Shown here: positions 44,341 to 62,872 of the stretch, piece after piece | Layout: every line of letters begins with the position of its first letter | How positions within the stretch are numbered: the first letter of the stretch is position 1 | Assembly (NCBI GenBank): GCA_002831545.1 | Contig: CP025095.1 | Location: 744,001-808,000 of the forward strand | Length of the DNA stretch: 64,000 nucleotides | From: Streptococcus suis | Lineage (GTDB): Bacteria; Bacillota; Bacilli; Lactobacillales; Streptococcaceae | Direction of reading: 5' to 3' | The notes under the pieces: model-generated | Seen by the model: only the letters and a program-made list of their open reading frames with translations | What the model was told of the DNA's origin: nothing | The model's database searches: none | Position numbers and translations under genes: made by a program

Positions 44341-44363
44341 ACCCTTGATACACAAGGGTTTTT
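44337..44363. terminator. Terminator between tRNA-Arg and integrase
   Basis: AAAAACCCTTG and CAAGGGTTTTT are an exact 11-base inverted repeat with loop ATACA. It ends just within the integrase stop codon and can serve both strands. Confidence 0.85.
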
Positions 44364-45456
44364 AACTTTCTCGCCCCAAATCCGCCCCAAATTTTTCCAT
44401 TAAATTTCTGACTTTGGCGAATGATTCTTCTTGTTTTGCCTTGAATAAGTGCGAATATGTTTTCAATGTTTCGGTCGCATCCTTGTGTCCTACTAACTTG
44501 GCAATGGTCACAACGTCCACGTCATGATAGATTAGCCAGCTAACGTAGGTATGACGTAAGCCGTGTACATTAAATGTTTGACGTGTCTTTTTCTTTAAAA
44601 TTTTATTTTCGCCAGTCCCCGTCAATTTGGTAAACAATCTTTTATCTGGATTGTCTATATATCCAACTTTCATGTACTCGTCGTATGCTTTCAGCCACTC
44701 ACTGTCAAATGGCACATCTCGTTCTGATTGCGGATTCTTAGTAGGTCCCCAACCTTTCTTCTTTCCGTAAACCTTGTAAGTCCTGCGGATTCGTAAACAC
44801 ATATTTTCGCGGTCAACGATAGGCTCTGTAATGCCCGCTGCTTCCGAGAAACGAAGTCCAGTTTTTCCGATAGTGTACAGGAAGAAGTGGGACTGGTACT
44901 TGATTGTCTTTCGATAATCTGTGATTAATTGTTCGTATTCATCAAGTTCCAGGTACTTATCCTCCTCTTTCTTGGATTCGACATCGGAGAAAATCTTGAC
45001 AATTTCGGTAAAATCTTTTTTTAAAATTCCTTGGTGGAGAGCGACTTTAATCGCTGCCCTTATATGCGAGTTGAACCTTTTGACACTATCTTTCACATAA
45101 CGTTTCGCTAATTCGTTTATAATATTTTGATAGGAAGTAGCGTTTATTCTCGAGAGTTTCGTTTCATGGAAGTATCTAGTAATTAGCTTAAGGGTGTATT
45201 CATACTTGCCAAACGTTTCTGGTCCGACATGAGGCTTCTTGTGGATAAGCATCCACTTTTCAAAGTATTCCGCAAGGGTAATGTTCTTATCTTCCGCAAC
45301 GCCATTGGACAGCTCGATTTCTGCCTGTGAGGCGGCTTGAACAGCCTCTGTCTTGGTTCTGTACCCTGACTTTGATTTTTGCTTGTATGAGCCATCAGGG
45401 GCTTTATAAGAGATACGGTATTCCCAACCGTTATCTCTTTTTCTAAAGTATGCCAT
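44362..45456 (-). CDS. int: Tyrosine-recombinase phage integrase
   Basis: This 364-residue protein has an N-terminal AP2-like arm-binding domain (FRKRDNGWEYRISYKAPDGSY), a SAM-like core-binding domain (about 65-165) and a catalytic domain with Arg in GKTGLRFSEAAGI, HGLRHTYVSWL (His-x-x-Arg), GHKDATET and the nucleophile Tyr in LKTYSHLF. It catalyses integration and excision at the tRNA-Arg 3' end. It is last in the leftward arm and reads toward the tRNA. Confidence 0.95.
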   Translation of the reverse strand: MAYFRKRDNGWEYRISYKAPDGSYKQKSKSGYRTKTEAVQAASQAEIELSNGVAEDKNITLAEYFEKWMLIHKKPHVGPETFGKYEYTLKLITRYFHETKLSRINATSYQNIINELAKRYVKDSVKRFNSHIRAAIKVALHQGILKKDFTEIVKIFSDVESKKEEDKYLELDEYEQLITDYRKTIKYQSHFFLYTIGKTGLRFSEAAGITEPIVDRENMCLRIRRTYKVYGKKKGWGPTKNPQSERDVPFDSEWLKAYDEYMKVGYIDNPDKRLFTKLTGTGENKILKKKTRQTFNVHGLRHTYVSWLIYHDVDVVTIAKLVGHKDATETLKTYSHLFKAKQEESFAKVRNLMEKFGADLGRES

Positions 45457-45581: not shown

Positions 45582-46016
45582 TTATTCGATATCTAATTGC
45601 AAGACTTCTTTGATTTTTGCTTTTAACTTGTCCAAATCTGTCTGGTCGAGTTGGTAGGCTGGTTTGTAGATTTTCTGGAATAGTGCCTTTCCTGATTTGT
45701 CAGTGAGGGGAACTCCAGAGGAGTCTACTTGCTTTTTGGTCTTGTAGATGATTTTGCGTTTGTCAATTTCTTGTATTTTTCGGACATAGGCGTAGGCTTT
45801 GGGTTTTGATGGTGTGTCTTGGTACTTAGTATTATCCAGCGTGATACCACCACGGTATTTTTTACCTGCTTTTTTGCCTGTTAATGGTACAACCAAGAGT
45901 GTGCCGTCTGTTTTATCTGGCGATGTCAGAATGATAGCGTAGTGCTTGCCGTAAAATTCATTTCCGCCTTTTTGTGTGAAATTGACAAGGTAGACTTCTC
46001 CTTGTTGGAATGCCAT
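45582..46016 (-). CDS. PemK/MazF-family toxin-like protein without a visible antitoxin gene
   Basis: This 144-residue protein starts MAFQQGEVYLVNFTQKGGNE at 46016 behind AAGGAGTTACC. The N-terminal half has the PemK/MazF SH3-like barrel (HYAIILTSPDKTDGTLLVVPLTGKK); the C-terminal half is a Lys-rich helical extension (KIYKPAYQLDQTDLDKLKAKIKE) not typical of MazF. MazF-type proteins are mRNA interferases; whether this one is active is unknown. No small antitoxin frame precedes it. Its leader holds two palindromic repeats. Confidence 0.75.
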   Translation of the reverse strand: MAFQQGEVYLVNFTQKGGNEFYGKHYAIILTSPDKTDGTLLVVPLTGKKAGKKYRGGITLDNTKYQDTPSKPKAYAYVRKIQEIDKRKIIYKTKKQVDSSGVPLTDKSGKALFQKIYKPAYQLDQTDLDKLKAKIKEVLQLDIE

Positions 46017-47062: not shown

Positions 47063-47121
47063 ATCTTGAATTTTTTCAATAAAATTCTTTCTTCATGACA
47101 TTTTTATTCCTTGCGTTATTG

Positions 47122-47502
47122 TCAAATCAAATTATTATATTCCTCAATCACCATGGTCTCGTTGACTGTGGTTTTTAAGTCGTATTTTTCCATAAAGCGA
47201 ACGTAATTAAATTCTTTGACATCGTCCATCAAGGCCAATTCTTCTTTGACCAGGTAATGGATCATATTCCTATCTGCTTGTAATTCATACTGTTCACGTC
47301 TACGGTCATATTGTGACGGATCATGACTTTGATGTCCAATTTCATGGTAGATGGTTTTCTTTTTTTCGATTTCATCAAGATATGTATCGACTGCAATCAA
47401 GTTGTGCTTTTTGTTATAGATACCCTTATTATCTGTATCCCTACCGTCAAAATAGACCAAATCAATACCACGTTCAGCGCATACTGATTCTGGTGTCATC
47501 AT
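47122..47502 (-). CDS. ImmA/IrrE-family metallopeptidase
   Basis: This 126-residue protein has the zinc motif YHEIGHQSHD (HEIGH at 53-57) and a later ELQADR that supplies the third ligand region, typical of ImmA/IrrE (DUF955). ImmA cleaves the phage repressor to trigger induction. It sits directly downstream of the CI-like gene (12 bases), the standard pairing. The ATG at 47502 is spaced better from AAGGAG than the TTG at 47508. Confidence 0.87.
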   Translation of the reverse strand: MMTPESVCAERGIDLVYFDGRDTDNKGIYNKKHNLIAVDTYLDEIEKKKTIYHEIGHQSHDPSQYDRRREQYELQADRNMIHYLVKEELALMDDVKEFNYVRFMEKYDLKTTVNETMVIEEYNNLI

Positions 47503-47514
47503 AGGCAAAACTCC

Positions 47515-47862
47515 TTATTTTCTATTTTTAATGCGAGTTTCTAGGATAGATGCAATTAAATCCAAATCTTCTTCATTGAGTTCGTGTCCATCATAAAAGA
47601 AACTTTCTGCTGCATCTTTTTTTAGATCTATTTCTGACAGACTTTCATCGGATGCAATCCGAGGATTATCTGTCCTACCTAATAGGTAATCAGTGGATAC
47701 GTTGAAGTAATTAGCTATTTCAGCCAATCGTTCGGCGTTGGGAGCTTTTGTTTTTAAAGTATAGAAATAATTTGTACTATATCCTAGATTTTCTTCTAAC
47801 TTCGCTAATGAAATCCCCCTCTTTTTAGCAAGTTCTTTTATTTTTTCTAGTGTTGAAAACAT
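47515..47862 (-). CDS. CI-like phage repressor (XRE family)
   Basis: This 115-residue protein has an N-terminal HTH (IKELAKKRGISLAKLEENLGYSTNYFYTLKTKAPNAERLAEIANYFNVSTDYLLGR, about 7-62) and a short acidic C-terminal region (SEIDLKKDAAESF...NEEDLDLIASIL). It lacks a LexA-like peptidase domain, which fits release by the adjacent ImmA-like protease. It probably binds the TCTAGAAAA-type sites upstream. Confidence 0.9.
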   Translation of the reverse strand: MFSTLEKIKELAKKRGISLAKLEENLGYSTNYFYTLKTKAPNAERLAEIANYFNVSTDYLLGRTDNPRIASDESLSEIDLKKDAAESFFYDGHELNEEDLDLIASILETRIKNRK

Positions 47863-47886
47863 TGTTAAATCAACCTTTCTAAGAGA

Positions 47887-47951
47887 TTGACAAAAAATAT
47901 TCCAAAAATCTAGAAAAAAGTATTGACTTATTCTAGAAAAAAGTATAGAAT
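47887..47951. promoter_or_regulatory. Repressor operator region with rightward promoter
   Basis: TCTAGAAAAAAGTAT occurs twice (47909-47923 and 47932-47946), 23 bp apart. TTGACT (47923-47928) and TAGAAT (47946-47951), 17 bp apart, form a rightward promoter with the second copy in its spacer. Related half sites (ATTCTAAAA, TTAGAAATGTTCTAA, TTATTCTAGAG) lie further right to about 48105, so this is a multi-site operator for the CI-like or Cro-like protein. Confidence 0.65.
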
Positions 47952-48152
47952 AGTTTTTGTAAGATGATTGAGTTAGAAAAAAACGAAGTCAAAAACATTC
48001 TAAAAAATTAAATAACACGGTCGCTAAACTGTATTTATAAATGATTAGAAATGTTCTAAACGTTGTTTTTATTATGCCTTGATTATAGACTTTATTCTAG
48101 AGTTTGTCAAGAAATTATATAAAATTTTCTAACTCTTTCGCTTACAAGCCCT

Positions 48153-48262
48153 TTGACAACTGAATAGAAACGTGGTAAGATATAGGGGAAAATAAGTGTT
48201 TCGATAAACCATCGGACAAAGAAAGCCCCCTGCTAACTTCCACATAAGCAGGGGGCTTTTTG
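48153..48262 (+). ncRNA. Antisense antitoxin RNA of an Fst-type type I toxin-antitoxin system
   Basis: TTGACA (48153-48158) and TAAGAT (48176-48181) are 17 bases apart; transcription should start near 48188 and end at the GC-rich hairpin AAGCCCCCTGCT/AGCAGGGGGCTT (48223-48258) with flanking T-runs on both strands. The RNA carries AAATAAGTGTTTC (48190-48202) and ACCATCGGAC (48208-48217). The same blocks recur at 48340-48363 across the toxin start codon. This is the pAD1 par RNA II layout: convergent transcription, shared terminator, two direct repeats giving antisense pairing in trans. Confidence 0.75.
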
Positions 48263-48268
48263 ACACTA

Positions 48269-48358
48269 TCAATCTTCGTCTAGCCATTTTTCAATGACAA
48301 GTAGAAGGATACCGACCACTAACGGGCCGATGATAGATGAAATAAGTGTTTCTACCAT
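48269..48358 (-). CDS. Fst-family type I toxin peptide
   Basis: This 29-residue peptide begins MVETLISSIIGPLVVGILLL and ends VIEKWLDED. It has a single membrane helix with a central Pro, then WLD and an acidic tail, which matches the Fst/Ldr family (pAD1 Fst). A GGGAGGTG Shine-Dalgarno precedes the ATG and an extended -10 TGATATAAT lies about 45-50 bases upstream on the minus strand. Membrane insertion and growth arrest are the family's action. It is far below usual gene-finder length. Confidence 0.8.
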   Translation of the reverse strand: MVETLISSIIGPLVVGILLLVIEKWLDED

Positions 48359-48460
48359 TGGACTTCTCACCTCCCTTCGAGGCGGTATCGTCAGTGCCAA
48401 TTTATATTATATCACGTTTCTATCAGTTCGATAGGGGCGTTTTTTTGTCTTATAGGAAAA

Positions 48461-48737
48461 ATAAAAAACGTACTCTATCTGCTTCATAGAGTACGCTACG
48501 GAAATTGATCTGCTCAGGCCAGAAGCAGTGGCACACGATACTTGACGAGTATCCGCACCTCGCACTGCTATCGGTTAGAAATATTTTTTCTTTTAAGTCA
48601 TTTCTGTTTGAGTCTGATATCGTCGACTATACCGGTAGAAGGTGACTGGCTTCTACAAATGAAAACATATTCCTACTGAGACACAGTATACCTCAAAAAC
48701 TCTGACAAAGAATATCACTCCTTTCGAGTTTATGATT
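48461..48737 (-). ncRNA. Structured non-coding RNA candidate in the phage control region
   Basis: On the minus strand TTTACA and TATAAT with a 17-base spacer (48744-48772) form a strong promoter; the transcript would end at CGTACTCTAT/ATAGAGTACG plus TTTTTT (48463-48495). Between lie long stems: GCAGTGGCACACGATACT against AGTATCCGCACC-TCGCACTGC (48525-48568) and GTAGAAG/CTTCTAC (48635-48656). No frame longer than about 14 codons fits, although AAAGGAG occurs near the 5' end. It is about 275 nt long. The class was not recognised. Confidence 0.55.
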
Positions 48738-48857
48738 AATTACATTATATAAAATGTAAGAAAATTTGTAAAGGGTTTCACTGTGAAAATACTTGAGCGG
48801 ACACGATTTCCTTTGATTTTTATTATTCATTATAACTTACAAGAAAGGAGAAATTAT

Positions 48858-49049
48858 ATGCCAAATGTGGACGGCGGTCGTCAAAAAGTATTGGAATACT
48901 TAAAAGACAACAATCTCACAATTACAACGTTAGCGGTGCAATACAGCATGGCTCGTCAGGATGTCACTAATATCTTGAATGGTAAACTAAAAAATCCACA
49001 AGCAAATCGTTTTATTGCTCGTGTGATTGAAGATTTTAAGATTCGGTAG
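48858..49049 (+). CDS. Cro-like HTH regulator, first rightward early gene
   Basis: This 63-residue protein begins MPNVDGGRQKVLEYLKDNNL and contains an HTH (ITTLAVQYSMARQDVTNILNGKLKNP, about 22-47). The ATG at 48858 follows AAAGGAG at eight bases; the longer upstream frame is not supported. It is opposite the CI-like repressor across the control region, so a Cro-like or antirepressor role is inferred. Confidence 0.75.
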   Translation: MPNVDGGRQKVLEYLKDNNLTITTLAVQYSMARQDVTNILNGKLKNPQANRFIARVIEDFKIR

Positions 49050-49092
49050 GTTCATAAAACTACCCAACTAACAAACTAGAAAGGAGAAGGGG

Positions 49093-49236
49093 ATGAGACC
49101 AAAACGTTATCCGTATCAAGGAAAAAAAGCTTCGACCACAGAAATAGTCAAAGCTTGGAAAAAAGATTGTTTAGAAATTTTACAAAAGCAGATAACTTCT
49201 ATTGAAGAGAAGTTAGCGCTACTTTATAACGAGTGA
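49093..49236 (+). CDS. Small basic phage early protein
   Basis: This 47-residue protein begins MRPKRYPYQGKKASTTEIVK with a coiled-coil-like C-terminus (LEILQKQITSIEEKLALLYNE). AAGGAGAAGGGG lies just upstream. It overlaps the tail of the opposing gene 49219-49437 by 18 bases. The function is unknown. Confidence 0.6.
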   Translation: MRPKRYPYQGKKASTTEIVKAWKKDCLEILQKQITSIEEKLALLYNE

Positions 49237-62782: not shown

Positions 62783-62872
62783 GGAGAGTTGGCAGAGTTG
62801 GTCGAATGCGCCCGTTTGCTAGACGGGTGGCCGCCTACGTGCGGTCCGTGGGTTCGAATCCCACACTCTCCT
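62783..62872 (+). tRNA. Phage-encoded tRNA-Ser (anticodon GCT)
   Basis: Acceptor GGAGAGT/ACTCTCC; anticodon stem CCCGT/ACGGG with loop TTGCTAG (anticodon GCT); long class II variable arm CCGCCTACGTGCGG; T-arm GTGGG-TTCGAAT-CCCAC. CCA is not encoded. It is the only clearly intact phage tRNA in view and reads AGC/AGT serine codons. Confidence 0.92.

Follow-up and report, generated by a model that had tools for sequence, protein, structure and literature searches.

A probable Fst/par type I toxin-antitoxin module with a PR-leader layout in a Streptococcus suis prophage

The prophage described here probably carries a type I toxin-antitoxin (TA) module of the Fst/par family, placed between its cI-like repressor and its cro-like gene in what appears to be the leader of the lytic promoter PR; the RNAs and the toxicity are predicted. 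The case is built from the anatomy of the module, its homology to known toxins, the co-variation of toxin and antitoxin, and the position, orientation, and terminator "cap" of the module in related phages.

The window, that is, the whole stretch of 64,000 nt that was analysed, corresponds to C1:744001-808000 of a 2.72-Mb single-contig genome, and the prophage occupies its right part. It possesses an integrase (44362-45456, minus strand), a PemK/MazF-like toxin gene between integrase and cI (45585-46016, minus; PF02452, 4e-11), an ImmA/IrrE-type M78 peptidase (47122..47508, minus; PF06114, 4.2e-10), a cI-like repressor identified with Pfam (HTH_19; 47515..47862, minus), the cassette, and then the early genes, the first of which encodes a cro-like small HTH protein (48858..49049, plus). 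The HTH matches of the latter are weak and all fall under the cut-off; in L050, L108, and phiST1, the plus-strand genes that follow cI begin with its homolog. In a search for the attachment site, a second copy of the tRNA-Arg 3' region was not found in the prophage's own genome. There is also a tRNA-Ser gene at 62783-62872, within a part of the window that is still prophage-like.

The toxin ORF (48269..48358, minus, stop included) encodes a hydrophobic peptide of 29 amino acids, MVETLISSIIGPLVVGILLLVIEKWLDED, and is preceded by a good Shine-Dalgarno sequence, AGGGAGGTGA. The peptide contains the PXXXG motif (PLVVG) and a charged C-terminal tail, EKWLDED, and has the length of about 30 residues that is characteristic of the family. 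Its matches to the two curated models lie below their cut-offs, namely, Pfam PF13955 (Fst_toxin; E 4.2e-5, 23.8 bits against a cut-off of 36) and NCBIfam NF033608 (type_I_tox_Fst; E 7.2e-5, 22.5 bits against 26). An HMM built without the window peptide scores it at 48.1 bits, and among relatives that share its frame, those of the MMEL and MCET types exceed both cut-offs, the MFEL type (L108; scanned in Pfam only) exceeds that of Pfam, and the MVDY and MCDF types (MCDF scanned in Pfam only) fail the curated cut-offs. The peptide alone is too short to be used as bait, since a tblastn search with E up to 10 hit just one phage record out of 50,697 (Javan576, 100% identical, E 4). PF13955 matches at E up to 0.001 are present in 54/247 genomes of the genus, its own included; Fst itself is therefore common in streptococci.

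The antitoxin (RNA II) would be transcribed from the opposite strand, where a promoter-like site, TTGACA-17-TAAGAT, is found at 48153..48181 (plus, 10/12 matches); relatives have a similar site followed by the start AGGGGAA. Judging from the -10 and the T run, the antitoxin RNA is predicted to be about 74 nt long (48189..48262, plus), and the sequence 48189-48263 folds at -30.6 kcal/mol (z -6.4). Two direct repeats are shared by the predicted RNAs. Repeat a, AAATAAGTGTTTC (13 nt), is found in the antitoxin at 48190..48202 on the plus strand and within the toxin ORF at 48340..48352 on the minus strand, while repeat b (10 nt, read from the sequence) is found in the antitoxin as ACCATCGGAC (48208..48217, plus) and at 48354..48363 on the minus strand, which reads ACCATTGGAC on the plus strand and covers the toxin start codon (48358-48356). 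Both RNAs would end at a bidirectional intrinsic terminator (48222..48259) with fully complementary arms of 13 nt (48222-48234 and 48247-48259), which is T-rich on both strands. This hairpin is missing from our consensus terminator scan because its loop exceeds the length that the scan allows. Rfam gave no family at the gathering threshold near the module, and its leader matches (best L20_leader, E 0.023, 24.8 of 58.7 bits) were dismissed as chance matches to a hairpin followed by a T run.

The predicted toxin promoter has an extended -10, TGATATAAT (48406..48414, minus), and a poor -35; the -10 was read from the sequence and could be aligned in relatives. The two promoters are convergent (48153-48181 plus and 48414-48406 minus), both being consensus matches, and promoter-like sites in the region are only modestly above shuffled sequences (10 found; mean 5.5, sd 2.5). 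In the predicted 181-nt toxin mRNA, a 5' stem-loop (48368..48384, minus; predicted stem 48384-48379 / 48373-48368) pairs the Shine-Dalgarno region, and the Shine-Dalgarno sequence lies inside the stem in both the MFE and centroid structures. No YUNR motif was found within the terminator loop of the toxin RNA, UAUGUGGAAGUU, although two straddle the stem borders. The two opposed promoters also have an inverted repeat in common (48164-48184 and 48403-48423) that changes together between phage groups, as TAGAAACGTG, TAGAGCATGTG, or ATCGTATGTG-like versions, and the sole exact match to its antitoxin-side core within the window is that site itself. We record this as an observation and not as an operator, because the cap hairpin described below explains much of the toxin-side sequence.

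Relatives were collected by blastn with 47860-48860, which matched 83 of 50,697 phage records, 15 of which were fetched. An Fst peptide is present at the site in 10 of these 15, two of which carry two in tandem, and the recorded hosts of the carriers are S. suis, S. pyogenes, S. agalactiae, and S. pneumoniae; in the other five, no Fst peptide was found at the site, nor any cassette DNA by blastn. Together with the best 80 of 551 IMG/VR loci and 17 genome loci, both found with the repressor as bait, and the window itself, these records make up 113 loci, of which 102 are distinct by sequence. Fst was detected in 26/102 distinct cI loci (with the best 80 of 551 from IMG/VR), which is not a prevalence because the loci were chosen by their similarity to the window locus, and these 26 loci are not independent of one another. 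They contain 31 modules, all on the cI strand, and both counts are unchanged with a cleaned HMM and with an HMM lacking the window peptide. Measured from cI, the end of the cI-proximal Fst lies at 386-424 nt in 22/26 loci and at 746-749 nt in the other four, where this Fst stands behind another module encoding a hydrophobic peptide (seen in L004, L105, and L110). In 54 of the 76 loci without Fst, the first plus-strand ORF begins within 330 nt of cI, that is, the site is essentially empty.

The bounds of the whole cassette, 48148..48462 (both strands), were derived from the empty site of Javan577, in which just 3 bases separate the counterparts of window positions 47460-48147 and 48463-49099, and 48148-48462 is missing as a block. 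L050 matches at 97.5% over 47119-48146 and resumes at cro (48842), lacking both the Fst cassette and the element that follows it. Since these clean empty sites occur in close relatives, we regard the Fst module as a discrete cassette. L108 matches to 48445 and resumes at cro (48843), and the match of L109 also ends at 48445, with both the next element and the window's cro unmatched. Javan577 and others have the next element but no Fst, and L108 has Fst but not the next element, so the two inserts come and go independently. The second insert (48463-48760, minus) possesses a promoter-like site (48772-48744, 11/12), a terminator (48497-48467), and a conserved micro-ORF (48708-48673) encoding MSEFLRYTVSQ, which according to the alignment reads MSEFLKETVSQ in Javan497 and P9; blastn places it in 13/113 loci, with and without the Fst cassette.

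These relatives bear on several claims made in an earlier note on this DNA. The cassette bounds are corrected here to 48148-48462, next to the operator cluster rather than inside it. That the placement between cI and cro is unusual is not supported: 26/102 similarity-chosen loci have Fst there, two are annotated there in phage SF39, and about 30% of the S. agalactiae (GBS) cluster A prophages have an fst-like TA according to excerpts of PMC11357604. The note had named as counter-evidence homologous prophages that keep the site and lose the peptide frame and the repeats. None was found among the prophages compared: in Javan577 and L050 the entire cassette is missing as one unit, and in L094 and L133 the frame is retained around different small hydrophobic peptides, each with its own repeats.

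Small hydrophobic peptides of this sort are encoded at L004:2884-2982, L094:2007-2111, and L133:1644-1739 and 1972-2070, where they occupy the same promoter-terminator frame. They have their own repeats and no match to the Pfam Fst or NCBIfam models, and we propose those of L004, L094, and L133 as candidate divergent type I toxins.

Selection on the antisense pairing is most strongly indicated by the co-variation of toxin and antitoxin. Duplexes were compared for nine representatives of 10 distinct peptides, one having been dropped as its antitoxin start motif could not be found; two pairs among the nine are nearly identical. The toxin and antitoxin RNAs of the same module pair at a mean of -36.5 kcal/mol, versus -20.2 kcal/mol for 72 swapped pairs, and the own duplex is the best, or tied with a near-identical twin, in 9/9 rows. 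In a second set of four modules, the own pair was best in 3/4, the exception being the outer toxin of L133, which scores -35.0 with the inner antitoxin of Javan576 versus -34.3 with its own. The prophage pair and a second Fst copy in the same genome show the same behaviour, with -19.2 and -14.5 when cross-paired and -31.8 and -39.4 for their own duplexes.

This specificity of antitoxins for their own toxins argues against a decayed or neutral passenger without function, a reading that we consider very improbable. So does Javan576, whose peptide is identical and whose module DNA is 97% identical to those of the window, though the cI side is only 69% identical. What speaks for a passenger is that 76/102 distinct loci do without Fst and that the codon changes are not clearly purifying: relative to L003 and L108 there are 6 and 7 synonymous and 12 and 12 non-synonymous codons, respectively, and second codon positions account for 3 and 1 of the 29 differences in each.

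A PR-like promoter, TTGACT-17-TAGAAT (47923..47951, plus), with the operator-like TTCTAGAA in its spacer, is faced by a promoter-like match on the cI strand, TTGACA-17-TATAAT (48082..48110, minus). Facing promoter-like sites of at least 10/12 each are found in 101/102 loci, the plus site 50-75 nt and the minus site 215-265 nt from cI; only L144, which comes from a Clostridium bin, differs, with a minus site but no plus site. In the window, the arms of the facing promoters form a 47-nt imperfect inverted repeat, and similar arms can be recognized by eye in other phages. The plus site is likely to be PR because it is the only site of that strength in the 330 nt of five empty-site phages (L050, L015, L017, L129, and L143). 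The cassette is downstream of the facing pair and would therefore lie in the PR leader, with its antitoxin strand the same as the PR strand. No copy of TTCTAGAA, allowing up to 1 mismatch, was found inside the cassette (48148-48462). Over the whole window, TTCTAGAA has 37 matches versus a shuffle mean of 46, which is no enrichment; 47908, 47931, and 48095 are therefore called operators on the strength of their location within the facing promoters.

The module continues beyond the toxin promoter into an intrinsic terminator on the plus strand, the cap (48414..48446; T run 48440-48446), which overlaps that promoter and whose hairpin folds at -12.4 kcal/mol (z -5.8). The cap is present on 26/26 outermost (cro-proximal) Fst modules, at -11.0 to -13.9 kcal/mol, and on 0/5 inner modules, which stem from three array types; two of these have no hairpin and three reach -1.7 to -2.2 kcal/mol. 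Across 28 modules, L094 and L133 included, there are three families of cap stem, ACGTTTCTATC, ATGCTCTATC, and GTACGTTATC, in each of which the partner arm is altered to match. The ACGTTTCTATC stem occurs with three toxin types (MVET, MFEL, and MLLT) and the ATGCTCTATC stem with four (MMEL, MVDY, MELL, and MLEL); the cap thus goes with position rather than with the toxin.

For comparison, we used 38 distinct Fst modules from 31 whole-genome loci (L001 and L018-L047), which are assumed to be chromosomal. By the same hairpin measure, 34/38 of these modules also show some hairpin with a T run upstream, which weighs against treating the cap as special on that measure alone; neither the cap motif (0/38) nor the AGGGGA antitoxin start (0/38) was found among them. 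The second Fst module of the prophage's own genome belongs here (C1:160770; L001:1477-1581): it has its own repeats and no cap terminator, and adjoins a divergently directed 353-aa gene. Tandem modules, with two or three near-identical toxins within about 1 kb, are seen in L024, L031, and L047.

When viral contigs were scanned for an exact cap pattern that fits the ATGCTCTATC family only, 12 stretches were returned, and 3 of the 12 contigs were already among the IMG/VR loci. In all 12, cI is on the toxin strand, an Fst-like peptide lies behind the cap, and the next plus-strand ORF begins 17-21 nt past the cap pattern, these being stretches of one cap type. No plus-strand promoter of at least 9/12 was found between the cap and the next gene in L007, L108, L109, or L052. 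In the window, a weak promoter-like site (48798-48826, 9/12) is present between cap and cro, in the second insert. If the cap works as a terminator, some of these phages face one about 20 nt ahead of their first early gene, which raises a testable question about the lytic switch and whether TA modules take part in it.

These observations suggest another reading, namely, that the module chiefly controls the lytic switch, its two PR-leader terminators attenuating cro and the early operon while the TA function is secondary. We think it possible but doubtful; it is compatible with the TA reading. Its support comes from the PR-like site, which keeps the same offset in 101/102 loci with or without the cassette, from the short distance between cap and next ORF in all 12 contigs of one cap type, from the four loci with no intervening promoter, and from the way in which the cap tracks position rather than toxin. 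Against it, the switch does not need the cassette, as 76/102 loci manage without Fst, and the second insert puts a weak promoter-like site between the window's own cap and cro. Nor does the PR leader show a conserved RNA fold suggesting antitermination: RNAalifold on 18 sequences predicted just 4 pairs, at -0.33 kcal/mol and confined to the vicinity of the cI promoter/operator arm, and so does not support an antiterminator.

We return to the TA reading, for which the following mechanism may be proposed. A 29-aa peptide that inserts into the membrane would be encoded by an mRNA of roughly 180 nt with its Shine-Dalgarno sequence folded away, and an antisense RNA of roughly 74 nt, made from its own promoter, would pair with this mRNA at the shared terminator hairpin and the two repeats and so block translation. 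Transcription, toxicity, and RNA half-lives are inferred. The module is an exchangeable cassette that sits ahead of cro, in the likely PR leader. Because its antitoxin lies on the same strand as PR, antitoxin would be made from its own promoter in the lysogen and also from PR in lytic growth, and the toxin would act only once the prophage DNA, and hence the short-lived antitoxin, is lost. The likeliest role is thus addiction as the benefit of the cassette, a judgement that we hold in even balance. The plus-strand cap most likely serves as insulation, keeping the antitoxin promoter from turning on cro in the lysogen.

The scores below both curated cut-offs, the lack of an Rfam family, the missing YUNR motif in the terminator loop, the equivocal codon changes, and the L133 mismatch count against the TA reading. 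There is a further counterpoint that the TA account leaves unexplained: if PR drives cro, two plus-strand terminators of the module stand in its way. We put forward, tentatively and expecting that it may well not hold, that the TA cassette is wired into the lysis-lysogeny switch of many temperate phages of streptococci as both addiction module and conditional attenuator, tying toxin silencing to lytic entry. The PR transcript would then read the antitoxin, pass two terminators, the second of them fused to the toxin promoter, and only then reach cro.

Two further roles, both raised in the earlier note beside post-segregational killing, should be kept in mind. With short-lived antisense antitoxins, a halt in transcription should in general exhaust the antitoxin and so release the toxin; by this logic the module could defend against superinfection through abortive infection when an incoming phage shuts off host transcription. 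We rate this as unlikely, nothing found in the analysis favouring it. Similarly improbable is that the toxin acts on prophage induction and aids lysis or phage release, since antitoxin and PR share a strand in 26/26 Fst loci, and induction should thus raise the antitoxin and not the toxin. There is, nevertheless, a precedent in hokW-sokW of prophage Sp5 (excerpts of PMC8621323), and the region of S. mutans TnSmu1 that holds Fst-Sm is strongly induced on depletion of ImmR, the strand not being stated in the excerpted text (PMC10233336).

The closest known counterpart is par of the Enterococcus faecalis plasmid pAD1 (Fst / RNA I / RNA II), in which, as outlined in the available passages of PMC7472228, the antisense RNA pairs with the terminator loop first and with the repeats next, and the toxin mRNA stays untranslated. 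On the same partial account, the two have in common convergent promoters, one bidirectional terminator serving both RNAs, direct repeats that span the toxin start and are read in opposite directions, a stem-loop over the Shine-Dalgarno sequence, and a peptide with a PXXXG motif in its hydrophobic part and a charged tail. The earlier note had proposed an Fst-type TA with the pAD1 par layout, which is supported by layout, homology, and toxin-antitoxin co-variation; the 29-residue peptide, plus-strand promoter, and hairpin that it named are all present, as are its two repeated blocks at the toxin start, to which must be added that the toxin promoter is an extended -10 and that the module runs on to the terminator at 48414-48446. 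The differences are that pAD1 par is on a plasmid and the window module on a prophage, that the window's toxin promoter overlaps a plus-strand terminator, and that there is no YUNR motif inside its terminator loop, a motif that the same excerpts report as not being in all Fst homologs. The window peptide also has a conserved tryptophan where pAD1 Fst has valine.

Fst-Sm/srSm of S. mutans TnSmu1 likewise pairs an Fst toxin, with an mRNA of about 200 nt, with an antisense RNA of about 70 nt, and adjoins a cI-like ImmR / ImmA pair on a mobile element (excerpts of PMC3543317 and PMC10233336). According to the same excerpts, Fst-Sm lies beyond immA, between SMU.219 and SMU.220, whereas the window module is between cI and cro in the PR leader. 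The prophage system hokW-sokW of E. coli Sp5 is also a type I TA with a small membrane toxin; it belongs to another toxin family, and the consulted part of PMC8621323 has induction lowering the antitoxin, the reverse of what the window layout predicts.

Streptococcus phage SF39 (OK173051.1) resembles the window in place, strand, and layout, having two annotated Fst modules in tandem with different toxins and antitoxins; these are named in the record, and no paper on them was found in the open-licence PMC literature. An fst-like TA on streptococcal prophages is, moreover, described for S. agalactiae cluster A (excerpts of PMC11357604, which give neither its position nor its regulation), and PMC7472228 includes, in the part available, a general statement that Fst occurs on phages. 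Searches of the open-licence PMC literature turned up no description of the cap, the orientation rule, or the swapping of toxins within an unchanging frame. The Fst family and its presence on streptococcal prophages are thus already known. What this comparison adds is a small-peptide TA module at one immunity-region site in phages whose recorded hosts are S. suis, S. pyogenes, S. agalactiae, and S. pneumoniae, its contents being swapped within a constant promoter-terminator frame, and its fixed, one-way, terminator-capped placement looks new.
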